Below, one piece after another: positions 4,026 through 52,872 of a DNA stretch of 64,000 bases. The stretch's first letter is position 1. Each line of letters starts with the position of its first letter. Location of the stretch: NCBI GenBank assembly GCA_018350325.1, contig JAEVLN010000014.1, forward strand, positions 124,001 through 188,000. Reading direction: 5' to 3'. This DNA is from Globodera rostochiensis. Its lineage: Eukaryota > Nematoda > Chromadorea > Rhabditida > Heteroderidae. The position numbers and the translations under genes were made by a program. The notes under the pieces are model-generated. The model did not search any database, had not been told where the DNA came from, and was given only the letters and a program-made list of their open reading frames with translations.

Positions 4026-4199
4026 CCACATGGGCACGGGGAAGTGGGTTGGGCTTCGGGAGAAACCCTGGAGGGGAAAATAGGGCGGGGGGGGGGGGGG
4101 GGAGTTGCATAGAAAAAATAAAAAATTTTAAGTTAACCATGAAAAATTTTCAATTGAGTACGTGTGGAAAAATAAATAAATAAATTTTTTGACATTTAA

Positions 4200-19652: not shown

Positions 19653-20252
19653 CAGGGATGGGCAGAAATTTATTTTTAAAAAACGGAAATATTTAACGGA
19701 AAATGGACAAAAAGGGCCAAAAACAACGGAAAACGGAAAAATTTTCAAATGAAAAAAAAAATTATTTTTTTAAAAATAATTTATTTTAATAAATATTTTT
19801 TGAAATATTATCATTCACATTATTTTTAAGGATGTCTTTTGTCCGCACCCTAGTCGGCGGCGCCGATAAGCGGCGCCGGAAAAATTTTTGACTTAATTTG
19901 TTAAGAAATTTCATCAAAATTTTAGCAAAATTATGAAAGTATTTTTGAAAAAATCAACACATTTTTCTGAATTTTTCAACAAATTTTTTAACAAAGATTG
20001 CTAAATTTTCATATTTTTCTGAACTTTTTGGTTTAAGTTTGTAACAAAGACTTGATTTTTTTTAATTTTTCTGGCGGCGCCAGCGGGCCTCTCCCATTCC
20101 TAAAAAACTTCAAAAAAAGTACCGTAATTTTAAAATTTTGTTGCAAATCCTAGGGGTGTATATTTTTTCCGTTTTTTCCGTTAAAAAGGGCATTTTAACG
20201 GAAAACGGAAAAGGCACAAAACAACGGAAAAACGGAATTCCGCCCATCCCTG
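19653..20252. mobile_element. hAT-like MITE, CAGGGATGGGC termini
   Basis: The element starts CAGGGATGGGC and ends in its exact complement GCCCATCCCTG. Subterminal regions are packed with iterated ACGGAAAA on both sides. Two copies of a GC-rich hairpin (19853-19879 and 20072-20090) sit inside in opposite orientations. No clean target duplication is visible, so the limits are less certain than for the elements with one. Confidence 0.6.
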
Positions 20253-20343
20253 TTGCCGACTTCTTCCTCCAGGTCCGTCCATCAGTCCCTTCCTCGCCCC
20301 TCCCCCAAATTGCCGTCACATTCCTTCCGTCCTTAAGCGTTAC

Positions 20344-20512
20344 TAGATATCGCTAAAATAAAATTTCCGGGAACGGGGTTTTCAAAAAAGTACGGGGCGG
20401 GAATCCGTCTTTTTCGCGTTCCCATAAAAAATCCCGCCCGGCAAAAAAGCCGGGAACGGGACCGGGAATCCCGTACTTTTCCCGCGGGAATCCCGTTCCC
20501 CGCCGATCTCTA
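20344..20512. mobile_element. hAT-like MITE, 169 bp, 8-bp target duplication
   Basis: It starts TAGATATCG and ends CCGATCTCTA. The flanks AGCGTTAC (20336-20343) and AGCGTTAC (20513-20520) are identical 8-mers. The interior is iterated GGGAACGGGA and CCCGTTCCC, giving strong self-complementarity. No coding capacity. Confidence 0.85.
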
Positions 20513-20559
20513 AGCGTTACTACCGACAGACAAAAGTCGAATTGGTTGGTTCGTTCGTT

Positions 20560-20940
20560 GGTTGTTCATCAAAGCTTTGACCGATTCGTCGATATGTTTT
20601 CCTCCCCAATTTGTTAGCGCCTTATCGCCGCTGTAGCCTTTTGCCTCTGTACAGCCATTTGTTCGAGACGCTTTCTGGCCTCGTCTCAATTCGGGCCCTC
20701 CAAATCACGCACAGGCATTTCTCATTCCAATTAAAAAGAGAACTCTTCTTAGAAGTGCCGAGACCCATCGACTATTTTGACCCCATAATCTTTTTTTTGA
20801 GTCTTAAGAATTGTCTGTCCGACTTTGAATGAATGCTCGCCCCTTTTTCAGATTTTCCTCGTTGATGCGCGACCGTTTAGAGTAGGGTTGAGCCTCGACC
20901 CCGAGCCCCAGAATGCGTTCAACTTCATTATTCGGCCTTT
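20560..20940. other. GC-balanced segment, possible gene relic
   Basis: On the minus strand a short frame near 20626-20690 reads EARKRLEQMAVQRQKATAAI and then stops. Composition resembles coding DNA but no splice context or family could be assigned. Confidence 0.15.
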
Positions 20941-20961
20941 AACATCCTTCGGAACGAGTGG

Positions 20962-21042
20962 GGGTCTTTTCGGCCCCGCCGTTTCGGCCCCGACGTTTTG
21001 GCCCCGGGACGTTTCGGCCCCGGACGTTTCGGCCCCACCCTG
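20962..21042. repeat. GTTTCGGCCCCG minisatellite
   Basis: Five imperfect copies of a 14-17-base unit (CGTTTCGGCCCCG, CGTTTTGGCCCCGGGA and similar). A related motif, CCGTTTCGGCGCC, recurs near 53670-53712. Confidence 0.8.
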
Positions 21043-21065
21043 CAATTTCTTTCTTGCATATTCAC

Positions 21066-22131
21066 TAGAGAACGGACTTAGGGATCGATCGAGATTTCGA
21101 TCGAGATTCTCGATAAAGCTCGAATCTCGAAAAATCTCGAATCTCGAAGATCTCGAAAAAATTTCTTCGATCGAGATTTCGATCGAGAATCTCGATAAAT
21201 CTCGAATCTCGAAAAATTTAACGAGATTTTTCGAGATTTTAATATTGTAATTTGTTTTCAAAACTCAGAAATTGTTTGCCTTTTTCATGTTCGCGCCCCC
21301 ATCCCTCAAAAACAATGACATTTTTTAACATCAATTCTCCAGCAGTCCTTCAAAATAGGGTTCCTCCCCGACCCCTCGGGGCGGGAAAGTCGGGGGTCGG
21401 GGAGACCGGGGTTGGCCATGTCGGAGGTCGGGGACGACCAAATTGTCGGGGTCGGGGGTTAGGGTTGAAGAAAATCTGTTCATAAAATTTTTTTTGATAA
21501 AAATCTCAGCATTTTTTAAAATAAAAAGTTGCAGGAAAAGGGAATTTTGTAATTTCTGAAAAAAATGGAGGTCTCGTCATGTTTGACTCTGCCCAATAAC
21601 TCAGAATAATAGAAATCATCAAAATTTTTCGGAAGGCGAAAACTTCTCCAAAAATCTTGTTGTGGTCAAGTTTTGCTTTTCTGAGCAAATTTTGATCAGC
21701 AATTTAAAAAAAAAAAGTTGAGAGGAGGGGGGATTGGCGCGAGAGAATATTAGAAATTTTGTTGGGATTTGCAATCAAAAAGTTAAAAAAATGTGTGTTT
21801 TTAGAAGCTTTTTAGGAATGGGAGGAGTCGGCGGTGCCGATAGGCGCCGCCGGAAATTTTTTTTGAAGATTTTAGCAATGTTCGTTAAGAAAATTGCTTC
21901 AAATTAACAAAATTTATATCTTGTTGAATTCTCAAAATTTAAAAAAACAGATCAATTTTTTCGATCGAGATTCTCGATCGAATATTTTTCGATCGAGATT
22001 TCGATCGAGAATCTCGAAAAATCTCGTTCAAGCCAAAATTTTTCGATCGAGATTTCGATCGAGAATCTCAAAAAAATCTCATCGAGATTTACCGAGATTT
22101 CGATCGAGAATCTCGATCGGTCCGATCTCTA
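21066..22131. mobile_element. hAT-like non-autonomous element, 1.07 kb
   Basis: It starts TAGAGAACGGACTTAGGG and ends GGTCCGATCTCTA. The flanks ATATTC AC at 21058-21065 and 22132-22139 form an identical 8-bp duplication. Both ends carry iterated TCGATCGAGATT words. The interior contains a nested GGGGTCGGGG-type element (about 21350-21475), the shared GC hairpin at about 21826-21853, and no transposase frame. Confidence 0.85.
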
Positions 22132-22394
22132 ATATTCACCGACCAATTTTTATTCAGAAATTTTTTTCAGATGAACTAAAAAATTATAATCAGAAAATTT
22201 GCAAGAAATTTAGGGGCTCATTGGTAATTACTAGAAACCCAAGAAGAAATTCCAAAAATTTTGACGGGTAGAATCCGATTCTTCAAATTAAAGCCCAGGC
22301 TCAAATCTAACATTTTTTCAAAATTCAAAAATCAATTTTGACCTGCAATTTTGGGTTTTATTGCATTTTTCTTAAGCAATTTTTCGGGGGGAGG

Positions 22395-22450
22395 GGGGGG
22401 AGGCGGTGCCGATAGGCCCGCCGAGAAAAATTTTTAATTTTGACTCAATT
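22395..22450 (+). repeat. Shared GC hairpin module, copy outside a delimited element
   Basis: GGCGGTGCCGATAGGCCCGCC forms a stem-loop and is followed by the GAGAAAAATTTTTAATTTTGACTCAATTTGTTAAG-type tail (given here in outline) seen next to the other hairpins. Confidence 0.7.
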
Positions 22451-22968
22451 TGTTAAGAGATTTGAACCAAAAATTTAAAAAATGTGGTAATTTTTAAAAC
22501 ATTTTTAGAATGGGAGAGCCCGGGAAAAAAATTTTGAGGATTTTAAAAGCAATTTGTAGAAAAATTGGTCAAATAAATGACCAATTTTGTTCTTCCTCAC
22601 TTTTTCGTACAGAAACGTTTTCCCGACAGGGGCCGCCCTCGATGTTCTTCGCCAATTAAATCAAAATGAATTCATTTGCTCATAAACCTCAAACAAATCC
22701 CCGCAAAGTCGAAACAGTTAGATTTTAATTCATAACTCGGTTTTCCGAAATTTTGGTCCAAAGCCTCGGGTTCAAAACACTTCAAATTCATGTATTTGAA
22801 TTATCGCTATCCTTAAAAAATGTTTTCTAATGAATGGGAAAACAAACGATTTCACTTTACGCGCCTAAAAACTCATTTCTTTTTTTTACAACAAAGCAAC
22901 AACAACAAAAAAAGGGGAACGGATTGTTTCCCAACTCAATCAATGTGACGGTGGTGCCCTCTCCGCCA

Positions 22969-23876
22969 TCATTCGGCGCTGCCGAAGCGCAGCTCTGAAG
23001 CAATGCGGTCCGAGTCCTTCTGGCCCTAAAGGAGTTGCAAAAACATTAATTGCTCCTATCCCCTAAACATGCGAATGTTAACTGGAATCCAATAAATTGG
23101 GAGGAGAGGGGAAGTCCAGATTTTTTTGGTTTGAAAAAGGCCATATGTGAAGGGAGAAAGCGCAACTCAATAATGCCCAAACGTGGACTTTAGATTGGAT
23201 CGGAAGGGGTTCCGGAAGTAACACGAGTTACTCACAACCGGGATTCAGAAAAAGCGCGTCATCAATGAGTCTTATTTGTTAGTTCCTCCAGACTCTAAAA
23301 GCTTGAAACCTGTTTGGTCAGTTTGCGCCCGCCGGTGGCCGCGTCTTTCTCCACCCATTTGAGCTCTTCCAATGACTGCAACGTCTTGCGAATGACCGCG
23401 CCGGACGCCTTGGAGAAGTGGTTGGGCGCCACCCCGCGACGCTTGTTCCCGCCGTACACCTTGCGGAACGAGCCAACACCGAAAAATAGCAGAAATTTAA
23501 TTTTTCAAAAAAAATATCGTCTTAATTTCAAAAAATCGTTGCGCGTTGAAGAACTCAAATTTGGTTTGTTTTATGATTAAAATTCAATTTGTTCAAAATT
23601 GGCGTGTAAGACTGACAAGCAACCAAAAACTTGCTTTAAAATTTCAATTTTCTAAAAAAAACCTGTCGATGAGCGAATGTAAAGACGACGGGCCATGGAT
23701 GCCACACGCACGTAGTACCAGTCAGAGTTTATTGGCGCCAACTATTTGTTTTTGCCCAGCTTCACCAGGTCCACCCAGTCAGGCAACTTGATCTTGCCAC
23801 TCTTCTTCAGAAAGGTGGCAACCGACTGCACAATTTCATGCTGATCAACGTCCTTAACACTCGTTGGCTTGCCCAT
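22969..23876 (-). pseudogene. rps-19: Ribosomal protein S19 (eS19) pseudogene
   Basis: Exons 23663-23876, 23310-23479 and 22969-23025 on the minus strand total 441 bases, or 146 codons plus stop, the usual eS19 length. Recognisable blocks include [92 protein letters not shown] and DSDRIASEL. Two lesions are visible. TAG stands in frame where the family has Glu (KNK*LAP, near 23743). The acceptor of the second exon reads TTTTTCG instead of TTTTCAG (23480-23481). Introns are retained, so it is not a processed copy. It would be a small-subunit protein needed for 18S maturation if intact; a sequencing error cannot be excluded, but two hits argue for decay. Confidence 0.85.
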
Positions 23877-24546
23877 TAATCAGCCCAATTTTTGTAGTTG
23901 ATCAAAATAATAAAAGCAATTAAAATGCACTGATAAATAGGAATCTAGCAGAAAAAAACAATAAATTTTGGAAACCTTTCAGCGTAAAAACTTTTGACGG
24001 GTTGACTGAAAAACGTATGCTGCTTTTGTTGGTATTTTTGCTGGTTTATTCACATTTTCGGTCAACATAGGCATGGGAGTACGAATTCCTAGTCTTATAT
24101 TACAGAATTTCACACAGTTCTGATGAGTTTTGGCAATTTTTGTTATCCACACATTTTGGATTACCCAAAAGCAAGCGAAACTGCGGAATCTCGATCAGAT
24201 AATCCAATTTGTCTATTTAAAATAAAGCGTTCGTTTGTTCAACAAACAGAAAAGTGAAGTACGAATAGTCGTTCATTTTATGCATTTAAAAAAGCGCCAA
24301 TAACAATATACGGTGGCAATTAATGGCAAAGTGTTGTTTTTCTATTTTTTTCAATTGGCCACTTTTTGATATTTTTTCCAATCAAAACTTTTAGCTCAAC
24401 AATAGGTTCTTCAGCTCTCTTCGATAACCTTTGGCTTTTGTTTAAACCTCCCCTATGTTCCGGGCTTCAACCTAGGTATCCGCCTTCCTACGGCGGCTAA
24501 AAAATCATCAGCCAAAAGTAGAAAATTAATCGTTTTCGTGCTTTCA
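23877..24546. other. Intergenic region upstream of the VPS-like gene
   Basis: No gene or repeat of note; AT-rich and able to hold promoters of both neighbours, which diverge from it. Confidence 0.4.
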
Positions 24547-24556
24547 GAAAAACTAA
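24547..24556 (+). promoter_or_regulatory. Putative trans-splice acceptor of the VPS-like gene
   Basis: GCTTTCAG ends nine bases before the ATG at 24557, with no upstream exon seen. Confidence 0.5.
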
Positions 24557-26338
24557 ATGCCCTTTTTGGCAATAATTTATATTGGGGTTGTCATCGCCTT
24601 CCTATGGTGGCTGCCTCCACCGCCGCCACCACCGCCACCCGCCAACAACAACAACAACAATAACAATGACGCTGGTGGTGGTGGTGGAGGTGCTGGTGGT
24701 GGTGGTGGCGGTGGCGGCGGCGGCGGTGGCGATGGTGGTGGCACATTAGCGCAGTACAGAATTCAACGACAGGAAAATTTCGCCCACATGCAGGCCAATA
24801 CCAACGCGGAATTCGCTGCGGACTTTGACGCAGTAGATTTCAATTTTATTCAAATGAAATTTAATATTTGATAATAACGATTAATTTTTTTTAATGCTTA
24901 TGAATCATCCATTTAAAAATTTTAGAACATGCTACCGTTTCCGGGTGAGCACATCCATCAGCAACAGCATCATCAACCGAACTCACTCTTCGAACTCGTC
25001 TCCGTTTCTGCCGTTTTGCAAGTGAACGCAAAATAATAATAATTGGAGTTTTTCGATCAAAACTTTTGCAAAAACAATTTAAGATTGAAGAACAAATCGA
25101 AAACGGGCGAATGGACGAGGATGAATGTTGCGCAACACTTTTCCGGTTGAGGATGGCATAAAATTGGGACATGAAAAGGGAATCAACCTATTTTTAGGGT
25201 CAAAGAGTACTCGCAAATGGCCATGCTGTGTTATTTGGACGCCCGAATTTTTGATTTGGTACTTTTCCATCCATCCAATCCTTTCTTCGGTCTAAAGAAT
25301 TATTTCAGAGCTTTCCGTCGCTGCACAACAAACTGCTCGAGCTGTACGTGCACTTTATCCGCGAAAACATTGGGGATGAGCAACAACGGGAGGGAGGAGA
25401 ACATTTTGCTGCGGCGTTGGCGGACGAATGTCGCCAGAAATTGCGCCAGTTTCTGCTCTTTTCCGCCTATTTCACTGCCGAGACGGCGTCGGCTGCATTT
25501 GCTGGAGACGACAAATTCCGCACCAAAGCCATTTTGGCAGAAGCAAATGTATTCAAATTGCGTTTATTCGGGATGAACTCCAAAAAAGAGACACAAATAA
25601 TTATTTTAAGTTTCAGGAAAATAACGCGGTGGACTGTCTCCAGAGATTGATGGCCATCGTTGTCGGCACAAATGATGCCGGTGTTGATCAACTGGAGGAC
25701 GTCTTCTCCGCCGGCCAACGCCTCTGCACGCGCTATCCGAGCCCTGAAATGTTGACGACGATGCTGACGTTGCATTTGCGACTTTCGGGGTACAAAAATT
25801 CCGCAGAATAGAACGAATCGGACGAAAATTGGCTTGGCTAACGTACGACCCCTCCCCCTCCCCCCCCCCCCCCTTGGAGGGAAATATTTTAGTCCGACAG
25901 ACGAATTGGGTTTGAAACCTTTTTCTTAGCTCCAACCCGGCATTTCGTGCACATACCGCGCACATTTTGGCACTTTTGGACAGTGCCACCCTGTTTCGCA
26001 ATGTGCCGGACGATCTCCGTTTTTCCGCTTTCGTGCGCAGCTTTCTCCGTCGCCATGTCGCGCAGCGGACGAACGCCATGCAATGGGGCCAAATGCGTTG
26101 GTTTTTTTAAATTTTAGATTAATAAATGCCTAAACTCGACGATCCAAAAAATTTGAACACAGGTCACGAGTTGGCCGCCATTGAACAAAGCCGCGCGATG
26201 TACGATTTGGGCACAAAATCGACGGGCGCCAAATTTTGCGTGGACGAACAAGCAAAATGCGGCACTTGCGAGCGCCGACTGAAAGCCGACGACGAATTTG
26301 TGTGGCATCCGCTGAACGGCCAACTGACGCATTTGTGA
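24557..26338 (+). CDS. VPS39/TGFBRAP1-like endosomal tethering protein, remodelled
   Basis: Eight exons join in frame: 24557-24832, 24926-25021, 25084-25145, 25198-25258, 25309-25548, 25617-25789, 25930-26096 and 26163-26338, giving 416 residues. The N-terminus is a hydrophobic segment (FLAIIYIGVVIAFLWW), then runs of Pro, Asn and Gly. From about residue 140 the sequence fits the helical part of Vps39-family proteins (SLHNKLLELYVHFIRENIG; later FSAFVRSFLRRHVAQRTNAM). The end holds a zinc-ribbon start, CGTCERRLKADDEFVWHP, then LTHL and TGA. In the family this part recruits HOPS or CORVET subunits in endosome-lysosome fusion. The usual N-terminal CNH propeller is absent, so exon 1 may be captured or may belong to another gene. 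The last zinc ligand falls just after the stop. Confidence 0.6.
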
Positions 26339-26380
26339 TGCTTTGACACGAATAAAGTGTCCGCTGATTGACCAAATCTG

Positions 26381-26484
26381 ATCAAATCAAACTAGCAAAG
26401 AACAACAAATTGGACATATTAATTAATCAAATCAAACTAGCAAAGAACAACAAATTGGACATATTAATTAATCAAATCAAACTA
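26381..26484. repeat. 45-bp tandem repeat, about 2.3 copies
   Basis: ATCAAATCAAACTAGCAAAG and the following 25 bases repeat exactly at 26381 and 26426, with a third partial copy at 26471. It lies just 3' of the VPS-like gene, probably in its 3' flank. Confidence 0.9.
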
Positions 26485-26489
26485 TTATC

Positions 26490-28455
26490 TGTTTTTTTAT
26501 TTGAATCTCACTGCCATTGTGATTTGTGTTTTGAGGAGTTTGCATATGTGCCAATTAAAATTGATGTTTTTTTTGTGCTACTCTTCCTTTACTTGGGACA
26601 TTTTTGTTCGAAAGCTCAATGAGTTGAACCAATGTCGGGCACAAGCCAAGAACGTTTGAAATCTCCAAGAAAGTTACCCCGCCAAAACCCAGTCAGTGGA
26701 ATTTCTAAAAAGCCTCAAGAAACCTCATCAAACTCCAAAAAACCACAAATGAGGCTAAAACCTCAGATCTGGGAACCCTGGTTTTGCTGCTTTTGCGACA
26801 CATTTGTTTGCCATTTTTCTAACAATTAGAGGAGGAAAAAATGGTCGCATCAAATTCCATTTTTGAGATTTTGCCAAATCCTCTCCCCCCCCCCCCGCCA
26901 ATCGGCACTTTTTCTTTTGCGTTAGTTCCGGCACATTTTGTTTGCCCAAATATCAATTCTCGTTAAGTGAATGGACGGGGGGGGGATGGGATGAGGCGGA
27001 AGAAAATGGGTTGGATTGTGGCAGGAGTGAGCCAAGCGCAGCCATTCCGTACGAAGAAGAATGGCCCTAAGACGGAAATGGCGAGACGGTATGTAAATTG
27101 TGACAAAATGGGGGGGTCCCCCCCCCCTGCCCGCAAGGGCAAATTCCCGCACAAACCCTTCCAAACCGGGGAACGGGGATCCCCGTACGGGGATGGGCAA
27201 AATCCATTTTTAGGGGTGCATTTTTGAAAAAATGTAATTTTTTGGGGGACTTTTTTTTTAAAAATCGAAATTTCTTCTAATTAAAGTGCACCCCTAAGAA
27301 AAGGCTTTCTTATGGTAAATATCCACCCCAGAGATTTAATTTTTTTGCGCCCGTCGTCGCCCATTTCTGGGATTTGCAGAGTCGCAGTTTGCCTGGGCAA
27401 ATCGAGGAGTCGGTGGCCCATTAGTACGACTGCGTGTGAAGGAGGGCGGCAAATAACAACACTTGATCGGCTAATCATTGAGGCCATCCTGGCATATATT
27501 CGAATTAATTTCGTTAAATTTGGACAAGAATGACACCTTTGATTCTATGACTTATGTATGTACTATTCGCATGACTGTTTGGTTTTTAAAAATAAAATTG
27601 CAATTGCTTTTCTTGGTTTTAATTAAATTTATTGGGTTGAGTTTTAAAATGTCTCTTTAAAGTGTCTGGATTTTTTAATATGCTCAAATTCGGTAACTCG
27701 AGCCCGTTTTACTTATTTAACTCCTAAATTTAATAATTCCCGAAGCGCAGACGACTTGCTCCAATCGCTTAGCACTTGCTGGGCTGGGACCCATGCACGT
27801 TTTGTTCTCTACAACTCTGTAGAACATCAGTTTGCTCTAGAAGCAAAACCCTGGTCTAAAATGCCAAAAATTGCTGGGTGATTTTTGTCCCTAACATTTT
27901 TTAGTTTGACCGCAGCGCTTAGCAATGTTTTACATTGTTGTAGAGCTTATTAAGCTGCATCGAATGCTGTTTAGATTGTTTAGAAATTTTTTGAAATTTT
28001 TGAGCTAGCCCCCTCAAAGCTTTTTCGGTTTTTTGTCACTAACTTTTTTTGGATCAAGTTTCAGTAATTCCAACGACTCGGCAAATTGGCCACTCAATTC
28101 TAAAATGGGGAAAATTATTTTTACTAACATACAAACATTCACAATTAAAATTGTCGTCTCAAATTTGTCGTTTGTCGTCTGTAATTTATCGTTGCCGTTT
28201 GTCGTTCGTAATTGTGATTAGCCCCAGGCTGGGATTCGACGGGGGGGGGGGGGTTCGGACGAGGGATCTGAATGCCCTATTTTTAAGGCAAATGCCATCA
28301 TTTTGGAAATTTTCCATAATTTTAAACTTTGTGAAAATTTCTTATTTTTTGAGAAAAAAAAGAGGATTTCCCGAAAATTGTGCTCATTGCTTCGTACAAT
28401 TTGAAGTTTTTTGGTTGCAAATCCCTTAACAAATTGAGTCAAAAATTCAAAATTT
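26490..28455. other. Intergenic DNA with C/G tracts and one possible coding relic
   Basis: No firm gene. C and G runs stand at about 26885, 26980, 27110 and 28240. On the plus strand 27300-27424 reads SYGKYPPQRFNFFAPVVAHF, continues WDLQSRSLPGQIEESVAH and stops at TAG. This looks like a coding relic but has no partner exon. Confidence 0.3.
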
Positions 28456-28490
28456 TCTCGTCGGCGCCTATCGGCACCGCCGACCCCTCC
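28456..28490 (-). repeat. Shared GC hairpin module, minus orientation
   Basis: TCGGCGCCTATCGGCACCGCCGA is the complement-side version of the hairpin found inside several MITEs, flanked by TTGAGTCAAAAATTC on its left as expected. Confidence 0.75.
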
Positions 28491-28499
28491 CCCAAAAGT

Positions 28500-30170
28500 G
28501 AAGCAGAATTCTCAAAAAAAAATTTGATTTTTTGAAAATTCCTCAAAAATGCCATATTTTTGACCTCTCGATGTCATAAAAATGCATATTTTTGGAGCCG
28601 GTTGCCATATTTTATCGAAGGTGATCTGAGATCCCCGTTTCGGGCCTGAAGCGAAATTGGCTTTTAGCGCGCACATTAATTAACGATTGCATTTTTACTA
28701 TTTTTATTAAATTGTTTTTTAATGCCAAAAATGCTTCAATCATCTTTCCTTCCGTTTTTAACAATTTTTTAAACTACTTAAACGTTATATTTTTAATGAA
28801 TATAAATTTGAGAAAACATTATATTATCTCTCAAAAGCTTTGAAATTAATTTAAATACACATTTTTTCTCATTATTTCGCTTTTAATATTCCATGCAATT
28901 CAAAGTCGCAGGCTTTTAGGGGTGGTACATTTTGCTAATTTTGTAACGTTCCATTTTTTCTGCCGGCCGCTAATTTCTTCCGCTGGAACACAGCAAAAAC
29001 ATTATCAAATCGACGCACCACCACCACAACAGCACAACAACACGTACACACATTGACTGAGCAGCACAGCTTTTCCTCCTCACATGGCCCGTAAAAATGT
29101 GTCCGTCCAGCCAACCCAACGAAACGAATTAGACGAAGAATTTGGGCGACCATTTTTTTTTCGCGCGCGCGGTTTGTTCGTCTCCATACCCCCCATCTAC
29201 ACATATATGGTCTGTCCGTCGTTGAACCACCCACCAACCCCCCGACGTCAATGAGTAATGGAGTAATAATGTAATTTTGATGTTTGCTGCTGCAGTTGTT
29301 CAACAACGACGGGTTGGGAGGGGGGGGGGGCGGGTTGTTACAAAAATGATTGGGGGTCCGGGGTCCGGGGCCACGTACTCTCCGAATTGGGGGGCCTCCA
29401 ATACCCAAAACAATGGATTTTACACAACCACCAGCAGTTTGTGGCCCCGACGGGGGTGGCCTAGGCCCCGTCGTCTCTGACCCTGTTAATTATTTGGCCA
29501 TTGTGTCACGACGGAATGAGGTTGGCCGGAAAGCGTCGGCCTCGTCATGTCGCGCGGGTCTCGTTTTCCTAACCATCAATCATCTGCTTGCTCTGAGGAG
29601 TTCAAGAAGTTGACCCATTTTTTAGACGACCGATCCAGAAAAAGTTTTGTTCGGGTCCCGTCTTTGGCTGGTCTGCATTTAAGAATTGATAGAAGATTCA
29701 TTTTAATATTCTGATCCCAACCCGTTTGGTCCTGAATGATTGTATTTATGGAAGGATCCTTTTTTAATTATTTTGATCTTAACCCGAGCTATTAAAAGTG
29801 ATCAATTCTGTCTTTAATGGGTTGGTCTTGTGAAGTGATTAGACTCTTTTTTATGTTTTGATCCTGATTTGATTGTATTTAAGAAATGATCAGACTAGCA
29901 TTTCTTTTACAAATTGGACACAATTTTCTGAGCTCACAAGCTTTCTATCTCCAGTCTTTTAAATTATAGTTTTATACAGAGAAAATTAATTATTTTTATA
30001 AATTTTCAAATAGTGGCGGGCCATAATTGCTTTTGTTTGACGCGCATTTTGCGTCCACAAGCGCACGCGCATCGGCTGCAATTAGAGGAGGCGACAAATT
30101 TATATTTTATTTCCAAATATTTATCATTTCATTTAGTAAAGGAATTAATTTGATTTCCTTTTTTTTAAAT
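28500..30170. other. Intergenic DNA upstream of the tyrosinase cluster
   Basis: No supported gene. A short plus-strand frame at 29084 (MARKNVSVQPTQRNELDEEF) lacks further support. A G-rich patch spans 29318-29475. From 29600 to 29930 there are diverged TGATCTTAACCCG-like repeats. Confidence 0.35.
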
Positions 30171-30191
30171 TTTCAATTGAGGTCCTTGAAA

Positions 30192-35941: not shown

Positions 35942-37160
35942 AAGCCTTTAAATGATGAAAACTTGACAACGGAATGCCATTTTTTTAAATATATTTTTAT
36001 TTTTCACATTTCGATTACTATTTTTATTTTACAAATGCAAAATCCCAAATGCTGTTTCAACACCGGTGATACCTAAACAAATAATCGCTTGAAGGAAAAA
36101 GTGCCAAATTCAAATTTGCTCAATTAAAAGAGAGTAAAAAGCTTTCTATTAATAGATTTTTTTGTTAATTTAATTGATATAAATTTAAATTAAATAGAAA
36201 CATGCAAGTTTCTGAACACGGGTGGCGAATATCCCAGATTTTTTGTAAACCTTTACAGAAACAATCTCAATTCGGCAGCATCAAAATAGTAAAAATTAAT
36301 TGAATTTTTACTTTTATGTCCAATAATTGTTTTGTGGCCTCGCGCGCGGCCAACCAAAAACGGGCCCCCCTCAAAACAATCGGCAAGATTATTTCATCGG
36401 CGGGCCCGGGAGGGGAATTGAACCTGTTTGTCGCCCCGAGCGATTTGAGACGTTACAGCCCCCGCCCCAATTTTGTGTTGACAGTGTTCCCCCCCCCCCC
36501 CCCCCGCCGAGTCGCGTGAAGTGCCACCCCCCCCCCCCCCAACCCCCAAAGTTCCCCAGAATTGAGCGAATTTGGGCGACGGGGCACAAATTTGTATGTG
36601 TCATCATAAAATCAGTTTTTTTTTACCAATAAACCAATTTTTAAAATTAAAAAAACCCCATCTTTAGTCTTTTATTACTAATGTTGTTGTGCCCGAATTT
36701 AATTGTTATCATGACAAAATTTTGCTCAAGTCAAAAGATTGCATTTTCTGGAATTTAAAATTTCCAAAAGCAAAAATTTTGTGCCAATTTCTCCAAAGTT
36801 TCTTTGATTTAACGCGTTTTCGGATGAACAAATAAAAACGGTCAAGGCACGCCATTTTAAAAATATTCAATCAATTTATGAAATGGACTATTTCTTCTAA
36901 AAGATTTTTTCTCCGACAAATTTGTGAGCACAAATCGCTTTAAATCATTTTTTGGTGAAAACAAAAACATTTTTAGTTTATTAAAATTCAAAAAACATTG
37001 ATTTTATGTTTCCTCATTTAAAGTGGTGCCAGATTTAGTGATTGGCATAATAACTTTTTGTTGTTGTTGCCATTTTGCCAATAAAATATATATTTCGGGT
37101 AATAATTTTTTTCGGCACGTTTAAGCAACCCAAAAAAAATATTGGGCGCTAAAAATTAAA
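35942..37160. other. Spacer between tyrosinase copies 1 and 2
   Basis: No gene. A GC-rich patch at 36340-36600 holds two long C tracts (about 36489-36506 and 36525-36540); the remainder is AT-rich and should contain the 3' end of copy 1 and the promoter of copy 2. Confidence 0.5.
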
Positions 37161-37175
37161 TGTTTTTAGCCTAAA

Positions 37176-42658: not shown

Positions 42659-42659
42659 T

Positions 42660-43760
42660 GGGGGACGGGCAATGTATGGCGGCAACCAAAGATACCGTAT
42701 CAGAAGCAAGTGTACGGATTTACTACCGTATACCTAGTTGATAAGGCGAGATGAGATGATCACTAGTTTTGTATACCATTTGAGGAGATTAATTAATTAA
42801 ATTTGGTTAAATATCCGGCATTCCAACGCCACAGCAAATCCGAAAATCGAAATTCGTTATATATTCTTGTTTATAATAGACTCATTTTTTCAAAAAAATT
42901 GAGGTCCGCCATAATTGCTAATTCTGTTAACGGATCCCGGCTGCTTTCTTAATTTAATTTGGATTCATTTTAGGAAAAAATGTAATAAAAATTAAGGCTT
43001 TTACGAAAAACTTTCACAATTCCTGCTCCTCGCCCGCCAAAGGCCTTTTTCTTCACAGTTTCAAGACTTTATAACCCACAACACAAATTGTGATTAATTG
43101 AACCGTTTGCCGAAGGGCGTGAAATGGTCGTCATAAAATGAATGAATGAACGAACCTGTCCCCCCCGGCGTTAATAATCAAAAAAATTGTCGGGCATTTC
43201 TTCTCGTCGCGCACCGTCAGAAGCAAATTCTCATATTTTACACAACATGGAAGGAAACGACCGAGCAAAAATGTTTTCATTATGGGACAAAACGGGACGA
43301 GTTTTGAAACCATTTTATCGTCTTACAATTTTTTTTTTTGTCAATCGATGCGTTTTTGATTTTTTTTTTTTTTTGTCAAACTGTTAATGATACCGATTAA
43401 AGAGTTTCAGCTGTTTTTGCTAAGTCCGAGAGAATGAATTTTGCTGTCAATGAATTCATAAACTTGCAAATTTTTTATGTTTTTTGATTTGGCTAAGTTT
43501 GCAGAGACACATTTTATCAATTCTTACGCATTAAGAAACATTTTTGTCTGCTCGTCAATGAAATTAATTCAAATATTAAATTTAAATATTACGACTTTAA
43601 TTTTAGATTGCTTGTTTCTCAATTTTATAAATTTATTTTATTCTTATTTTTGAATAATTGTTTATGTTATTTTGAATGATAAACACATAAGAAATAAATT
43701 TGTTTTATTTTACTGAATGTTGATTTTTTCCCAATTTCCAATTTCATTTTTTTATTAATT
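42660..43760. other. Spacer between tyrosinase copies 2 and 3
   Basis: No gene supported. T-rich homopolymers at 43328-43340 and 43362-43374. A short frame MEGNDRAKMFSLWDKTGRVL at 43247 has no splice or family support. Confidence 0.4.
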
Positions 43761-43773
43761 TGCATTTTAGGAA

Positions 43774-46700
43774 ATGGCGACAAAATGGACAATATTATTA
43801 CTCATTATTTGTGCTATTCAGCTCAAAGTGCATGGCCAGGATGAGCTTGAAAAATCGGGGAACAAAAGCTCTTCCGCCGCCATCGACAAAAGCGAACTTT
43901 CCCCTCCGGCATCGACAGAAAATTCCGAAAAATCGGAAAAAGCAAAAGAAAGTGATAATAAAAATGACGACGGAAAGAAGCCAAACCTTGAAGAAAAAGC
44001 GTCAAATAGAAATGACAGTACCACAACAACAGGTGTCTGTTTAAATAAAACTTTTAATTTTTTGGAATATTTTATTTTAATATAAAATAGGCGACGGCAG
44101 TGAAAAAACTTTGGGCAAAACGCCGCCGCCCGATTTGGCGGGCGACTTGGCTTCGTCAGGGGGTGTATTTAAAATTAAAAATAAATAAATTTAAAAATGA
44201 AATTAAGGCACAACCAATTCTTCTGGGCCAGTGCCACCGCCAAAAAGTAAAAAAATTATACAATTATTAATCTTATTTATTCCAAATAAACTCAAATTAA
44301 AATAAAATAAAAACCCAAATTAAAATAAAAGAAAATTCTGCAAAATCAGTGATTTAAAAACCATAATAATTAGACACGGCATCCGGTGAGGACCCCTGCG
44401 CCAAAGCGCCAACAAAATCGTTACGAATTGTCTGTCAACAGCTCCACCGATGGGACAAAAATGCCCGAGTATTTAATTTATTATTAATTTCTTTGTTTTT
44501 AAAAAGCATTTTAAATTTGAATTATTAGGAGGCGCCTCCGGTGGAAGAAGCTGTCCCAAAAATGCCATCAATTCCCGGATTAGACAGTAAACAAAATTCA
44601 CAAATCAAATCAAATCAAATTATTTAATTTATTTTGGATATAAATATTTTAATTAAATGTTAAATGAAAAATTATTTTTTAAGTGGGCCTTCTCGCCGCC
44701 GAACTTGCGCCGATCGCCGCATCGCCTTACCAATGCATGGATTTGGGCTGTCTATGCAAATACATGAATGGTAATAAAATTAATATTAAAAAATTTTCGC
44801 GAAGTTTATTTATTAAATTTGACAGGAAATGGCCAAGAAGGCTCAAATAATTGCCAACTTTCTGATAACAAACCGTTGAAAAAGGCAATACGCAAGGAAT
44901 ACCGGATGCTCAGTGACCAAGAACGAGCAAAATTTGTATATTTATCTATTAATAAAATTATTTGGGGCTAAGGATTTATGAATTTTTGTTGTTGTTAAAG
45001 CATGCCGCGATGAATGCCATCAAAAAAAGTGGTGAATACGACAAAATTGCGGCACTCCATGCCGCGTTTGGCCAATCCGGCGCTGCCCACGCGGGCCCGG
45101 CATTTTTGCCATGGCATCGCGAATTAATGAAAAGGCAAAACTTTTTTTTAATGGGTTAAAGTGATAAATCATTGTTTAGGAATTTGAGACTTTTTTTTGT
45201 TTAAATTTAAATTTAAAGAATTTGTTAAAATTTCTACAAATTTGGAAGTAAATGCGATGAGATTAATAAAATTCTTTTTTAATATTTAAGAAATAATTGT
45301 CTATTTGGAAATTTAGGCTAATCTTCATTAATTTAGGCTTGAAATTTCATTGCGACAAATGGACCCGTCAGTGTCCGTGCCGTACTGGGATTCCAGTTTG
45401 GAGGCACAATTGCCAACACCCGGAGACTCCCACATGTTCACGAAGGATGTAAATTTTGTTTATTTTTTAATAATTTAAAGAAAAAATACGCCAAAAAGAT
45501 GGAAATAATCTCGGGTTCGGGAGTTCATGATTAGTCAAAATGGATTTTGAGTTTAATTTTAAGACCCGTAAAGCCATAAATAAACGTTTATTAATCTTTT
45601 AATAAAATTAAGTTTATGGGCGACACGGATTCGCAGGGCAATTTGGTGGTCGGAGATTTTGCCGGATGGAAAACACTTACCGTAATAAGCTCATTAATAT
45701 TTAATTAATTAATTATGTTAACTTTTAGGGGACGCCAAATGTGATTAGACATGTCGGCCAAGGGGGCAAAGGCTTCACAGAGAATGAGTAACAAATTAAA
45801 TAATAATTTAAACCATTAAATATTTGTTGCAGGATCCAATGGTTTTTGAATCAGCGACAACTTGACAAAGTTTTCGGCTACAGCTCACCACAACCGGGGG
45901 TTATTTATAAATATATTTTTTTAATTTAATTATTTATTTGTATTTAGTTATGCCCCATGGAACTTGACTATCAATTAATTGAGGCACGTTTTGGAATTGA
46001 TTAAGCAACAAATCATTAAGCAATTAAATGTTCATCTTAAATATTAATCAATAACAGAAATATTAATACATTTGCATTTTGATTAATTGCCCATCCAATT
46101 TCTAATTGAATTTTAGGTGACTCACGGCAATGTTCATTTATTTGTGGGCGGTGAAGAAGCCCAACCGGCCGGGCACATGTCGGACACGTCCACCTCCGCC
46201 AACGACCCGCTGTTCTTCTTGCACCACGCCTTTGTTGACTGCGTAAAATTTGAAAATTTATAAAAATAGCAAAAAAAAAAATCCTAATTAAAAATTTATG
46301 AAAATAAAAACTAGAATTAAAAAAAGAGTTTTGGATAATTTTACATTTATCGACATTGTTTTTAAGATTTGGGAACAATGGCGACAGTCCAAGCAAAATC
46401 GTAATGATCGAGAAATTGCGTATCCAATGGATAATGCGGTAAAAATTCTATTTCAAAACATTTTCAATATTTAAATATTTTTTAAGCAATGTGCCAGTGC
46501 TATGCATTTTGGCTCTGCGCCAATGAGACCATTTCAGGTCGATTTGGGGAGACATTTTTAAATTTTACGATTAAGAGCTATTATTTTATATAATTCTAAA
46601 TTAAATTTGATTTGATTTAAGTTTTATTGAAAATGTCGGTTTTGCCTTTTTGAAATAATTATTTTTGAATTTTTAGCCATGGCGAAATGTGGACGGGCTG

Positions 46701-49700
46701 AGCAACAAATACACGGACAATATGTTCGAGTATGGGCCACGGCCGAACTGTCAGATGGGCCCAAACTGCGGGTCAAAGTGAGTGCGCAAAATTCAGCAAA
46801 AATATACGGGTGAAATTAGAGAGTAGACTGATCGAGATTCTTGATCGAAATCTTGACGAGATTTTTTCGAGATCTCGATTGATCCTAAAGCCCGATCTCC
46901 GGGTATTGTTTAACATTTTTTTGTCTAAAAAAGGTATTTGTTCTGCGACCGTTCACATGGCCCGCCGCATTGTGCGGCAAAAGTTCGCACGCGCGGCAAT
47001 TGCCAAGGCTTTTCCAACGGTGCAAATATTTTGAAATAATTAAATAATAAATTAATTTATTTATTAATTTATTAGACGAAGAAGTTTGCTACAACGGCAT
47101 TTGCCAAAGAGGCCGTTGTGTGGATACGAACATGGTAATAATAATAAAATAAAATTGTGAAAATCACTTACAAATTAAAGGACTAAAAAATCGTAATAAA
47201 ATAAAACGCAAAATTGGGCCAAAAAAGTGCGAAAAGTGCCAAAATTCCTAATTTTTTATCAGAATTTTTATTTAGAATTCAAAAAATTACACCGATTTTC
47301 CTCGAAAATGACACAAAAAAATTGAAAATTCCGGTGCCCGTCGACACAATTGTTTTCAATATATTCAAAATGTTCAGGAACCTCCCACAACTCGCCCACC
47401 TCCGCCAACAACTTTCCAACCGCCAAAGCAATCGCAAGTAAAATTTAATGACATTTTATAATTTAATTAATTACATTTAAAAAGGTTGCGTGTTACAATG
47501 AGCACGAATGTTGCTCACTTTGGGCGGACAAAGGCGAATGTGAACGAAACAGTGGCTATATGAGTTCGTGGTGCAAAGCCAGTTGCCGGCAGGTTAGGCA
47601 ATTTAAATTTATATTAAACAAAAAAGGAAGTGAATAAAGTATAAATATTTTAAATAATTTAATCTCAAAATTAAAATAATGAACAAGAAATGTTAAACAA
47701 ACGTGAATAGAGCTTATATATATTTTTTAAAAGTTTTAAATTTAAAAGAAGAAACAAAATAAAAAACTTTTAAACAAAAGTGAATTGAGCAAAATATAAT
47801 AAAAAGTTTAAATAATTAAATCTTTAAAACTGAACAATTAAATATTTAGTGCCAAGTTGACTATGACATGAATCAAGGTTTTTTGTTTGGAAACAAATAA
47901 ATTGTTTTCATTAATTTTCTCAATACATTTAAAAAAAGAATGCACAAATCGACATCCGAACTGTGGCCAGTGGTCAAATGAAGGGCAGTGCCAGCGCAAC
48001 CAATTTTGGATGGTATTTTTTAAATTAAATTAAATTAATTTCATTATTTATTAATTCCATTCAATTAAATTAATTTCATTATATTAATATTTTAGCAAAA
48101 TTAAATTTATTATTTTCTAAAATCTATTCAATTAAATTCATTTCATTATTATTTTTTTTAATTGTTTCCAATTAAATTAATTTCTTATTTTTTAAATTAT
48201 ATTTAAATTAATCATTTTCATTATTTTAAATTATTCAATTAAATTAATTTGCATATTTTTAAAATTCTATTCAAATAAATGAATTCAATATTTTTAAATT
48301 GTTTTAATTAAATTAATTTATTAATTTAAATAATTTTATTATTAATGCCCATGATTTTTAAGACGGAAAACTGTCGTCAGGCGTGCGGAAAGTGCCAAGT
48401 AACGCGGTGGCAAGTGTGTAACGGAGGTGCCAAAAGTCAACAGAATCAAAGTGGGGAAAATTTTTCAACAAAAAAAAAAATTTTTTTTGAAAACATTTTT
48501 TTAGACCGAATTACGCAAGCGCCCCCCGCTCAACAAGCGCCTCAGTGCTCATCGAAGGGATGTTACAACGAAAATATTTGTTGTCAAGTGATTAATTTTT
48601 TTGTTTAATATAATTTCTTACAAAATTGATCAGAGTTGATCAAATGTCTAAAAGACTCCAAAAACGGGGAGAGCACAGACAGTCAGAGTCAGAGAGAGAG
48701 AATGATTTCTCCATTTTTCCAAAAATTATTAAGAAAAATGCAATAAAAGTCAAATTTTTGAATTTTACTTGCAAGATTGAAAAATTTTCAAAGAAATACA
48801 ATAAAGTTCGAGTTTTTCTTGTCAAGATCGTTCATAGCAACTTATTATTTTTGGGATCTCGAAAAATGTTTACCAAACGCGTTGCCTGGTGGTCGTCGTT
48901 TGGTCTAAAAATATCCTTTTTTCTAAAGTTCAAAAAACTATAATTGGCAAATAAAAATGGGTAATTAAATTTTAATATATTTTATTGCCATCATTTTTAG
49001 CTTTGGGGATTGGCCGGCGAATGTCGCCGAAATCCGCCGTGGATGAACTGCTTTTGCAAAGTCAGCTGCGGAAAGTGCATTCCACAGGATTATGTGTTCG
49101 GATGTGAGCTTTTATTGGAAATATTTAATTAAACATTTTTACACGGCAATTATTTTAATTAACAACCTTTTCTACTAATTAGTAAAAATAATATATTTTT
49201 CAATTTCAATTTTTTAAATTTTAAACAAATTTTTGAAATTTGGTAAATGTTAAAATCTCAAGTCTTTGTTGTTCCGGGAATGTGTTTGTGATTCAACGAA
49301 TGTACCAGGGATGCCTTCCGATCCGTACACCGGGTTCCGTATTTTTTTGTGCATTCCATATTTTTTTGACACGGAAATTAAAATGATTTTTTTTGATTTA
49401 ATTTTAATTACCTAATTTGTAAGCTTGCACTGACTACCATCCCCGCTGTTGGCAGTGGGCCGATGCCGGCGAATGCCGACGCAACGCGTGGATGTTGGAG
49501 AATTGTAAGCAAAGTTGCAGCACCTGTGTCAGCCAGTCCGAGCTCAGACAGGTTGTGGGCGGGGGTTGCCAAAAAATTTTGAAAATTTCATTTTTTGTCC
49601 ACAAATTTTACTGTTATTTATGGACACTGGCATTTGTTATTATATCGAATTGATTTTTTGTTTAAATGTAACTTTTTTCTTATTTTTTAATGAATTTTTA

Positions 49701-50050
49701 ATAAAGATGTGCCGACGAGGTGGTCGTGGAAAACGTGAAATTGGCATGATGCCGTCAATTGAATACAGTATGCAAGCATTGAGCCGTTTTTCACGAGATA
49801 TTGACGAGAATGAAGGCAAAATTTATATATTTTTGGAATATAAATTTATTTCCTAATTTTTTTTAGAAGCCAGCGCACCCGCTGTCGCAGAATCTCGTAA
49901 TTTTTTTTTAATTTCTTTGAAATTTAATTTTTTACTTAAAAAAATTTAGTCCCAAGCCCTCATGGGCCGCCAGAAAAAGCAACCGAAGGAGCGAAAGAAT
50001 TTGTTTCGGGACAGAAAAAAATGCCGGACAGTAGCGGAATGCCAGCATAA
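43774..50050 (+). CDS. Secreted tyrosinase with N-terminal extension and four ShKT (copy 3)
   Basis: Thirty exons join in frame to 867 residues: 43774-44032, 44091-44162, 44208-44246, 44374-44468, 44529-44586, 44684-44770, 44826-44935, 45001-45134, 45337-45448, 45613-45681, 45729-45787, 45833-45899, 45948-45983, 46117-46242, 46367-46438, 46487-46537, 46677-46777, 46934-47019, 47076-47134, 47378-47437, 47485-47592, 47850-47877, 47939-48012, 48363-48450, 48505-48587, 49001-49103, 49424-49551, 49707-49815, 49867-49896, 49950-50050. A signal peptide ([16 protein letters not shown]) leads into an acidic Ser/Lys/Glu-rich extension of about 120 residues not found in copies 1 and 2. CuA His in [21 protein letters not shown]; CuB in VTHGNVH and FFLHHAFVD, with an insert (EAQPAGH) between. 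Introns 8, 13 and 28 have GC donors. An acceptor lies three bases upstream of the ATG. Confidence 0.92.
46811..46905. repeat. TCGATCGAG-type repeat in a tyrosinase intron
   Basis: TAGAGAGTAGACTGATCGAG through CCCGATCTC, a diverged copy of the 21066-22131 family without a recognisable target duplication. Confidence 0.5.
48020..48340. repeat. AT-rich imperfect repeat in a tyrosinase intron
   Basis: The phrase ATTCAATTAAATTAATTTCA recurs about six times with variation, which explains why this intron of copy 3 is longer than its counterparts. Confidence 0.6.
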
Positions 50051-50179
50051 ATAAATTTGAATTTTTTGTTTGCAACAGAATGCCATTAAAAAATGTTTTT
50101 GCTTTTAAAATGAATACATTTTTAGACACAACAAATTCTCAATCTTATAAAAAATAAATCAATTTTAGTTAAGTTATAC

Positions 50180-50616
50180 CAGGGTGCGTAACTAAAATTT
50201 TTCAAAATAAGGACATCAAGGGCAAAAAATAAGATTTTGGGGTCCGAAATAAGGACATTTTACAAAATGTTCCGAAATTTTAAAAATACGGTAATTTTTT
50301 AAAGCTTTTTAGTAATAGGAATGGTCCGGCGACGTAAGCGCCGCCGGGACAAAAATTTAACGACATTTGTGAAGAAAATTTTTTGCAATTTTTACTCAAT
50401 TTGTAGTGAAAAGTGGTCCAATTCGCTTCGAAATTTTCTAATTTTGAAATTGGATCAAAATATTATGAAAATCTTCACAAAATTCGAAAAATAAGAACAA
50501 AATAAGGACGGGGGCCTCAAAGGACAAATCTTACAAATAAGGACATTTTTAATTTATAAGATTGGCACCCCTCAAATAAGGACAAATCTTATAAATAAGG
50601 ACAGTTACGCACTCTG
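50180..50616. mobile_element. hAT-like MITE with GCGTAACT termini, 437 bp
   Basis: It starts CAGGGTGCGTAACT and ends AGTTACGCACTCTG, complementary with one mismatch. The flanks AGTTATAC and AGTATAC differ by one base loss. ATAAGGAC is iterated near both ends. The shared GC hairpin lies inside at about 50327-50347. No open frame. Confidence 0.75.
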
Positions 50617-51664
50617 AGTATACATATAAAAAATAAAGATTTTGATGGTCAAATAAAGGACACATTTTTAAACAAATTATTCATTAGAATGTGCATATTT
50701 TTTGCTTGAAGTGATTTTTCAATAAATTTTTGTTTCCAAGCTTCGGCGATTTTGAGCTTTCGAGCTTCGTGCTTTGGGTAGATACCCGAAGTTTCGGCTA
50801 AAATACACCTGCAGGGGTCGCATCAAAAATTTTCCAAAATAAGGACAAACTTTCAAAACGTTCTAAAAAAGCTTTGTCCTTTGGGCTGGAGAACAGGGAT
50901 GGGCAAAATTCGGATTTCGTGTTTCGGAAATACCGGGATTTTTGGCTTTTCGGATTTAAAATCGGTTCGGATTTTTAGAGGGGATATGTAAAGATTCCCC
51001 AGAGACCGATGTGAGGGCACAGTGTGCTCCAATTGCAAAAGTTGCACTTTCAAAAGAACTCGTGTAACAATCATTGCATTTCTCCACCGCATTCGCCCTC
51101 TGTTCAAAGCGGGCATCGCCTTTAAGGTTACCGATCGCCGGTGCTTAAACACATTGGCTGATCAGATTCTTCCGTTCGTCAAGCTCATCATCAACAACAT
51201 CACCCTAATGCATTTTGGCGATTTGTGAGCAAAAATAAACAATTCAAATTTGTTTTTGAATTTTAAACAACAAAAACAAAATCGTTTCCCTCTTCACAGT
51301 CCCTTCTCGAATGGTGTTGATGAATTGTGCCAATCTCCGAATGATCTATTCGATGTACTTTTTTCCGATCGGCCAACCGATGTTCGATTGGCTTCACACA
51401 CCGCGCAAAGATGGCCGTCCGAAGGTTTTGCTTTGTCCATTCGAGCGTGCGACGCTGGTCAAACTCAAAGAGGTGGGCGGGCGGAAGATAGTGCCGGGAA
51501 TTATAATGGCACTCTCTAATGATGGCATCATCAAGTCCCTATTTCAATGTCCGGAAGGCCAAATGTTCGAAAACTCCTTTAAAATGCCATTTAAAATGCC
51601 ATTGATTAAAATGTTCGGCGCCATACTCAATCGGCCGGCCGACCATCATTGTTAGGGATGGGAT

Positions 51665-52506
51665 TAGGGTTGAGCGGGACCGGGACCGGGACGGGATTTC
51701 CCGGTTTTTTCAGGTCCCGGTCCCGGTCGGGACGGGACTTTTTAAAATCTGAAAGTCCCGGTCCCGGTTTTTTGGTCCCGCCGGGACCGGGACCAACCGG
51801 GACTAAATTTACACCCCTAATGATGGCATCATCGAGCGACAATTTCAATCTTTTTTACAAGTGCTCCCCAAAGAACTCGGTGTCTTAGTGGTTTGTCTTC
51901 CGGCAAGTCAAATGTTTCTGTCGGGTTAGAGTCCGCTTGAGTACAAACATTTATTTATTCTTTTTCCTTTACTCACATAATTTTCTTCCCCTAATAATAA
52001 CAATATTTTAATTTTAAATATATATACTTTTTTAAATTAAGCTAAAACAAGAATTTTTGAAATAAATTAAATCACATCTTCCTGAATTTTTGCTTCAATT
52101 TCCTTAACCGTAAACCAGTTTTTTTCTCTAAATTTCGAAGCAAAATACATAATTTTGCTAAAATTTTGATGAAATTCTTTAACAAAATTGAGTCAAATTT
52201 CAAAAATTTTTCTCGGCGGCGCCTATCGGTACCGCCGACCCCCACCCTCCCTAAAAGTAAATCTCAAAATGATACGATAAAATTGAAGTTAAAGACAATG
52301 AGGAAGATATTTTGAATAACAAAAAATTTTTTTGTTTTACTATTGAACATTACAAAAAAAATTTTCCCTTGAAAAGTCCCGGTTAGTCCCGGTCCCGGTA
52401 CCGGTCCCGGTTGAAAATGTTGGTCCCGGACCCGGTCCCGGGTTTTCTGGTCCCGGGAAGTCCCGGTCCCGGTTTTTCCCAAAAGTCCCGGTCCCGCTCA
52501 ACCCTA
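51665..52506. mobile_element. hAT-like element, 842 bp, GGGACC-type termini
   Basis: It starts TAGGGTTGAGCGGGACCGGG and ends CCCGGTCCCGCTCAACCCTA. The flanks GATGGGAT at 51657-51664 and 52507-52514 are identical. Both subterminal zones consist of iterated GGGACCGGGAC words. The middle is AT-rich, carries the shared GC hairpin (52213-52240, minus orientation) and has no transposase. It lies in an intron of the F-box-like gene. Confidence 0.92.
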
Positions 52507-52755: not shown

Positions 52756-52872
52756 TAGGGTTGAGCGGGACCGGTACCGGGACGGGATTTCCCGGGTTTT
52801 TCTTTTTTTCTCGTGATTTTTCGAGATTCTCGATCGTAATCTCGCGAGATTTTTCGAGATTCACGATCTCTA
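52756..52872. mobile_element. Chimeric MITE with mismatched ends
   Basis: The left end is TAGGGTTGAGCGGGACCGG (same as 51665) but the right end is TTCACGATCTCTA (same as 21066-22131), with TCGAGATTCTCGATC words before it. No flanking duplication is seen. Confidence 0.7.

Follow-up and report, generated by a model that had tools for sequence, protein, structure and literature searches.

The DNA analysed here, called the window below, is a stretch of 64,000 nucleotides from the nematode Globodera rostochiensis (G000:C6:124001-188000; contig JAEVLN010000014.1, forward strand), and the genome searched with it comprised 92.6 Mb in 80 contigs. Between positions 19653 and 52506 the window contains four elements with terminal inverted repeats (TIRs) that resemble hAT miniature inverted-repeat transposable elements (MITEs), and within these and two further fragments lie seven places with a short hairpin or a diverged form of it. 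We found that the hairpin and the tail that follows it form a core common to about a dozen hAT-like MITE families with unrelated ends, and we give a probability of roughly 0.6 to the reading that the core of a MITE was repeatedly captured by other hAT MITEs and amplified with the recipients' ends. The features are as follows.

19653..20252: hAT-like MITE with ends CAGGGATGGGC; the ends match, without duplication (flanks GACGGCAC and TTGCCGAC)
19856..19877, plus strand: hairpin with variant arms within the CAGGGATGGGC element; its tail matches other copies
20072..20093, minus strand: diverged second hairpin of the CAGGGATGGGC element, in opposite orientation; flanks homologous to 21765-21824 and 50275-50328
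21066..22131: hAT-like MITE with ends TAGAGA..CGGAC, duplication ATATTCAC and a composite interior
21356..21914, plus strand: segment of the TAGAGA element recurring elsewhere in the genome (query 291 to 849 or 850)
21830..21851, plus strand: hairpin of exact consensus within the TAGAGA element
22356..22560, plus strand: interior fragment of a CAAGGGCGTAGCC-type MITE, with a first hairpin at 22402-22422 and a second unit at about 22525 without hairpin
28260..28640 (approximate borders): decayed MITE of the CAGGGCGGCC family, 76% identical to the L007 element over 382 columns
28460..28481, minus strand: hairpin within the decayed CAGGGCGGCC element, grouped with L007 at 100/100 in the core tree
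50180..50617: hAT-like MITE with ends CAGGGTGCGTAACT and CAGAGTGCGTAACT and an imperfect duplication (AGTTATAC / AGTATAC), read by hand
50327..50346, plus strand: diverged hairpin of the CAGGGTGCGTAACT element
51665..52506: hAT-like MITE with ends TAGGGTTGAGCGG and an exact 8-bp duplication, GATGGGAT
52215..52236, minus strand: hairpin within the TAGGGTTGAGCGG element
60101..60235 (approximate), plus strand: relative of the tail, without hairpin

Through a search with the GGCGGYGCCGATARGCGCCGCC pattern at up to three mismatches, we found five matches at four places in the window (19856 on the plus strand, 21830 on both strands, 28460 and 52215 on the minus strand) and none in 100 shuffles; position 21830 was matched twice because the sequence there is nearly palindromic. 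The initial annotation had named seven stem-loops of one form. Four of them (19856, 21830, 28460 and 52215) show that form with at most one mismatch and a fifth, at 22402 on the plus strand, shows it with a deletion of one nucleotide, but those at 20072 (minus strand) and 50327 depart from it and are diverged hairpins, recognised through homology of their flanks to other copies. The four TIR elements it described are real, with an exact 8-bp duplication in two, an imperfect one in the third and none in the fourth. The two loose copies, at 22402 and 28460, also look like MITE remains, of CAAGGGCGTAGCC type and CAGGGCGGCC type respectively, and the seven places therefore fall in six host families. 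In the core tree, three CAAGGGCGTAGCC-type hairpins and the one at 22402 form a 100/99 group. The element at 51665-52506 is without about 71 bp, including a second hairpin, that is present in many relatives (the L040 copy has two hairpins). Only three open reading frames of at least 150 amino acids were found in the window, none of them within the four TIR elements.

The phenomenon extends far beyond what the initial annotation described. In the genome, a 20-nucleotide stretch of the hairpin occurs at 4,180 places when one mismatch is allowed, and at none in the reversed control, and a 41-nucleotide stretch of hairpin plus tail at 1,372 places with at most three mismatches (control 0). Copies were compared in a sample of 354.6 kb, overlaps included, which consisted of 30 loci of 3 kb, 20 stretches of 10 kb and the window. 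The loci were chosen around hairpins in contig C1, 0-3 Mb, and family frequencies and hairpin identity are biased because the sample, from this region and the window, was picked by hairpin. Counted at up to four substitutions, 103 hairpins became 85 distinct ones after the merging of identical 102-nucleotide contexts, a step that cost at least one real copy (in L044). The whole-genome DNA searches scored the 40 best candidates only and thus favour copies resembling the query; a search with joined arms escapes this bias, for one family only (L041). The hairpin and tail patterns gave 4 stretches in viral and prokaryote contigs, and the tail pattern alone 0 in the viral and 1 in the prokaryote ones; these were taken as chance matches. 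Across 100,040 bases, made up of the window and five loci, no Rfam model was matched at its gathering score.

A strict element was defined by TIRs of 13 nucleotides with at most two mismatches and an 8-bp duplication with at most one mismatch. The sample contained 47 distinct strict elements, and the block-shuffled window and 10-kb stretches contained one. A counted hairpin was present in 35 of the 47, which together hold 49 of the 85 distinct hairpins, and the addition of two hand-read window elements brings the hairpin-bearing elements to 37. In a matched test, an element with TIRs and an 8-bp duplication surrounded 46 of the 85 hairpins versus 7 of 400 random points, and five of these seven points sit in the L053 and L055 elements, which bear diverged hairpins. 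The remaining 36 hairpins include many with a single known family end at a distance of up to 1.3 kb and some lacking any such end.

MITEs of the hAT superfamily have 8-bp duplications, TIRs starting with YAG or CAA, and family-specific subterminal repeats. The host elements show the 8-bp duplication, short TIRs of hAT kind (about 12-25 nucleotides, all beginning with CAG, CAA or TAG), subterminal repeats particular to each family, and no long coding frame. Compared by BLAST (up to 151 nucleotides per arm, E 1e-3), the arms of the 37 hairpin-bearing elements formed 13 clusters without mutual similarity, all hAT-like; the largest, around the GTAGCC type, contains 19 elements with several TIRs. 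Grouping by TIR alone gave, in our judgement, about 19 types. Searches for hAT dimerisation domains (PF05699) in the genome found 100 over the cut-off among the matches listed. At C67 2.479-2.486 Mb two of these domains are close to a TAGGGTTGAGCGG arm, and at C11:100852-112057 five of them, spaced at about 2.7 kb and each containing a single TGA, make up a tandem array of a hAT piece.

As a counterweight, none of the seven strict elements in the 10-kb stretches away from targeted hairpins contains the hairpin, and two of the four in the window do, which leaves nine of eleven without the core. Seven of these nine measure 103-233 bp, and the others 493 and 690 bp. Since coreless elements are common and mostly short, the core is frequent in the longer hAT-like MITEs of this sample and not a general property of such elements.

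The consensus core across 16 TIR types reads G-run, GTC, GGCGGTGCC-GATA-GGCGCCGCC and then GAGAAAATTTTGAATTTTTGACTCAATTTGTTAAGAGATTTGCAACC; the shared part is thus the G-run, a hairpin of 22 nucleotides and a tail of about 60 bp. One imperfection of the stem, a T opposite a G, is common to 78 of 85 copies, which argues for a single origin. Among 2712 pairwise alignments through the hairpin, 2311 begin between -20 and +4 of it, at the G-run (the +4 bound being a limit set in the analysis script), and the ends fall 30-75 nucleotides past the hairpin in 1468, sooner in 983 and later in 261. Many elements have two units about 122 bp apart, and L013 has three. A plain satellite was rejected, since the units come singly or in twos and threes, spaced by about 94-122 bp. 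A Helitron terminus was also rejected: Helitrons lack TIRs and duplications and have their hairpin close to the 3' end, whereas the present hairpin is internal to elements with both TIRs and duplications.

The hairpin lies near the middle of the elements in 19 TIR types, with a mean distance from the centre of 0.10 of the element length versus 0.225 for a uniform placement, and none of 100,000 simulations gave so low a value; the uniform null covered 5-95% of the length and is perhaps too generous, as subterminal repeats need room. For this comparison, manual correction was applied to three elements that were nested or enclosed others. The clearest exception is the CAGGGCTCCCAAA element, with the hairpin 30 bp from one end. 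Changes in the stem were left-only in 33 cases, right-only in 24 and double in 2, versus 1.5 double changes expected by chance, and one further paired variant (L013, of other length) was set aside from this count; with 57 single-sided versus 2 double changes, maintenance of the stem by covariation was rejected. The hairpin is cleanly missing between intact flanks in units of L012:1400, L010:1565 and window 22525.

Through a tree of 84 core units (139 columns, many open forks), we found that the cores mix hosts whose arms do not align. One branch (94/93) unites 26 first hairpins, from the GTAGCC type and from seven further TIR types. Of these seven, five have arms that fall outside the GTAGCC cluster. 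A CAGGGATGTGCTC element, for example, has a first hairpin whose sister, at 95/89, is one of GTAGCC type. In both TAGGGTTCGG and CAGGGATGTGCTC, the first hairpin belongs to the 94/93 branch and the second falls with the second hairpins of the GTAGCC type (fork 87/82). TAGGGTTGAGCGG and TAGAGCCCGGTCG, whose arms are unrelated, have second hairpins that join at 100/96, apart from the GTAGCC type. These groupings therefore indicate that exchange took place several times, perhaps not always from one donor. Recruitment of the hairpin by different MITE families, as the initial annotation suggested, is borne out by the 13 unrelated arm clusters among 37 elements, the roughly 19 TIR types and the mixing of hosts in the tree.

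In the mechanism that we propose, the hairpin and tail would form the central domain of a single hAT-MITE lineage of very high abundance, with TIRs of CAGGSCCGTAGCC / CAAGGGCGTAGCC type and often a pair of hairpins spaced by about 122 bp. A dozen or so hAT-MITE families with unrelated ends would have captured pieces of this donor interior mid-element, either because a donor MITE nested in them and then lost its ends or because donor sequence was copied in while an excision gap was being repaired, and each recipient family would then have amplified with its own ends, the core being a passenger. We infer the direction of the transfer and the respective shares of nesting and gap repair.

Donor termini are visible in two families, so that nesting and gap-repair capture become distinguishable family by family. 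In L041, which has TAGTGCTGCACGA ends, the core is preceded by the left half of a GTA-type MITE, with its terminus CAGGCACGTATTT, and the right half is gone. In L008 and L049, of the CAGGGTTGCAACG family, the terminus CAGGGCCGTAACC lies 164 and 160 bp ahead of the hairpin, and a search allowing up to three mismatches found no partner end for it. These two families probably took up the core by nesting. Genome-wide, 12 matches of at least 90% to L041, one being the query, retain the donor-terminus stretch, and at least six places of the family jump from base 277 (once 273) to 397, having lost the donor terminus and kept the core; one place with the L041 junction, C12:585918, holds the exact 41-mer. 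By such a loss of its terminus, a nested MITE becomes a core without a recognisable origin. For the element at 21066-22131, 17 matches elsewhere stop at one border, 63 nucleotides past the hairpin (query 849 or 850), and this stretch, whose final base does not belong to a TIR, looks more like copying during repair. Nesting and repair copying may both have occurred.

Considering the later amplification, the hairpin was covered in all 40 scored copies of the CAGTGTTTTCCTG family, so the core was present before these copies were made; for the TAGGGTTGAGCGG and TAGTGCTGCACGA families it is likewise covered at most of the places scored. Some copies lost the hairpin through deletion, for example C1:2560113-2560596. 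The CAGGGTGCGTAACT family, of which the window copy is diverged, has the exact 41-mer between matched arms at C4:757547 and C12:797906, and by our own comparison 5 of the 14 two-ended CAGGGTTGCAACG elements listed on C1-C12 hold it. In untargeted sequence, with L052 as the reference, pieces of GTAGCC-type MITEs cover the arms 6-7 deep and the hairpin units up to 11 deep; with coverage so nearly equal, capture need not centre on the hairpin.

The 16-nucleotide end of the CAGGGTTGCAACG family has 120 occurrences in the genome, and CAGGGTTGCAACG elements at L008:1012-2091 and L026:1520 are inserted in the hairpin itself, at the target GTGCCGAT. A search for CAGGGTTGCAACG ends after GTGCCGAT, the hairpin's own 8 bp, gave three exact left junctions and 17 at up to two mismatches, and L026 makes a fourth case, one-ended and in the other orientation. 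The expectation for one exact hairpin site is about 0.003 by our arithmetic (about 60 elements, 4,180 hairpins). The CAGGGTTGCAACG elements may insert preferentially into the hairpin, which would feed nesting.

Several observations weigh against repeated capture from one donor MITE. The dominance of pieces holding the hairpin is partly built into a sample picked by hairpin, and the donor terminus is retained in two families only. When the L041 arms were joined, none of 67 matches crossed the join by more than 3 nucleotides (40 of 136 candidates scored), and therefore no empty, pre-capture site was found. The grouping of the TAGGGTTGAGCGG and TAGAGCCCGGTCG second hairpins means in addition that not every transfer is traceable to one donor.

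A wider reading, which we hold only tentatively and consider doubtful, makes the core a conserved central domain of DNA transposons and an exchange hub among hAT MITEs, a counterpart of the cores of short interspersed nuclear elements (SINEs); new MITE families would arise where the ends of one hAT lineage become linked to the core, whose hairpin and G-run would stall repair synthesis and attract hAT insertion, and the core would raise the odds that a new family amplifies. It is unlikely, in our estimate, that the core is a selected functional domain of hAT MITEs, as the central domains of SINEs may be for their carriers, which lets acquiring elements amplify better, for example by helping end pairing, stalling synthesis or evading silencing. 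The recurrence in about 19 TIR types and the central position are the whole case for function, and the hairpin is nearly invariant across 16 TIR types, though the copies were picked by hairpin; against this, the stem changes give no sign of maintained pairing, three units are cleanly without the hairpin, the core is absent from nine of eleven strict elements away from targeted hairpins, and GTAGCC-type arms in untargeted sequence are covered almost as deeply as the hairpin units.

Descent of all the families from one hAT MITE, with ends diverged or replaced and the centre kept, is improbable. It holds inside the largest arm cluster, where the 19 elements have GTAGCC and related TIRs, and the start of all TIRs with CAG, CAA or TAG agrees with it, but the twelve other clusters have no detectable similarity to the largest, the cores differ by about 0.1-0.2 changes per site in places despite the unrelated arms, and the family-specific subterminal repeats differ completely. 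The narrower possibility raised with the initial annotation, that one element had its ends replaced by nested insertions, stands in so far as nesting is likely in two families, and fails in that the recipients are many lineages.

Very improbable is a mobile unit of about 100 bp (G-run, hairpin and tail) inserting by itself into hAT MITEs, for although similarity begins at the G-run in most alignments, units are repeated within single elements and a few copies, such as L016 and L039:6104, have no recognised host ends, direct repeats of at least 8 occurred at 4 of 85 hairpins versus a mean of 5.3 in re-paired controls (of at least 7, 14 versus 13.15), no empty sites were found, and larger donor pieces, up to about 320 bp, come along in some families. 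The earlier idea of a module moving between families as its own mobile unit thus finds no support: direct repeats flanking the unit do not exceed the re-paired controls, and the core is accompanied by a terminus of the hairpin MITE in two families.

Some other features of the window and sample were noticed. A tandem array with a 131-bp unit, about 66 copies and 98% matches occupies window 10789-19413 and adjoins the first hairpin element. Window 52757-52873 has a left end TAGGGTTGAGCGG and a right end GATCTCTA, the ends of two families, without a matching duplication, and window 53225-53554 is an imperfect palindrome with 69% identity to its own reverse complement. Between 30 and 64 kb, repeated similar blocks form a tandem gene cluster, with a tyrosinase match in one exon (one of eight frames tested); a homologue search with this exon found none. 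Stretches resembling tRNA (GGTTCGA-type B box, read by eye) adjoin the core in the composite MITEs L043:3957-4143, L041:4467-5523 and L051:8114-9265.

The closest known systems share parts of this organisation. SINEs have highly conserved domains (CORE, V, Deu and others), described in PMC6887750 as of unknown function, with module exchange proposed. The present core is like them in being one central domain across families with different ends, and unlike them in bearing a hairpin, lying in MITEs of hAT DNA transposons and being known from one genome. The hosts here are TIR elements with 8-bp duplications, whereas the carriers of the SINE domains are SINEs, marked by a tRNA-type head and a tail of long interspersed nuclear element type. 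MER6, a mariner MITE with a piece of a V-SINE (PMC6887750), likewise captured the centre of another element and was amplified together with it; that case concerns one MITE family and a SINE, whereas here many hAT families hold the core of a MITE.

The P-MITEs of Anopheles gambiae also have MITE ends around an unrelated centre, and PMC1562414 explains these centres by ectopic gap repair, reports one MITE with ends of two subfamilies and suggests that stable secondary structure could favour transposition. Their internal regions are given there as without significant identity between families, unlike the one common core found here. With hAT MITEs in general the duplication, TIRs and subterminal repeats match, and the hairpin core across families differs. 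A search of the open-licence literature, at the level of search results, returned no report of one central sequence across many DNA-transposon families with different ends, and the word MITE is absent from the part of PMC11118728 available. The phenomenon is real, extensive and regular, and of a known kind, that of composite MITEs and shared central domains; the setting, a core common to about a dozen hAT-MITE families, is new to us.

For the annotation of repeats the finding is a warning, as clustering by internal similarity would merge unrelated families. Should the core also aid amplification, it would represent a selfish module of DNA transposons that can be put to the test.

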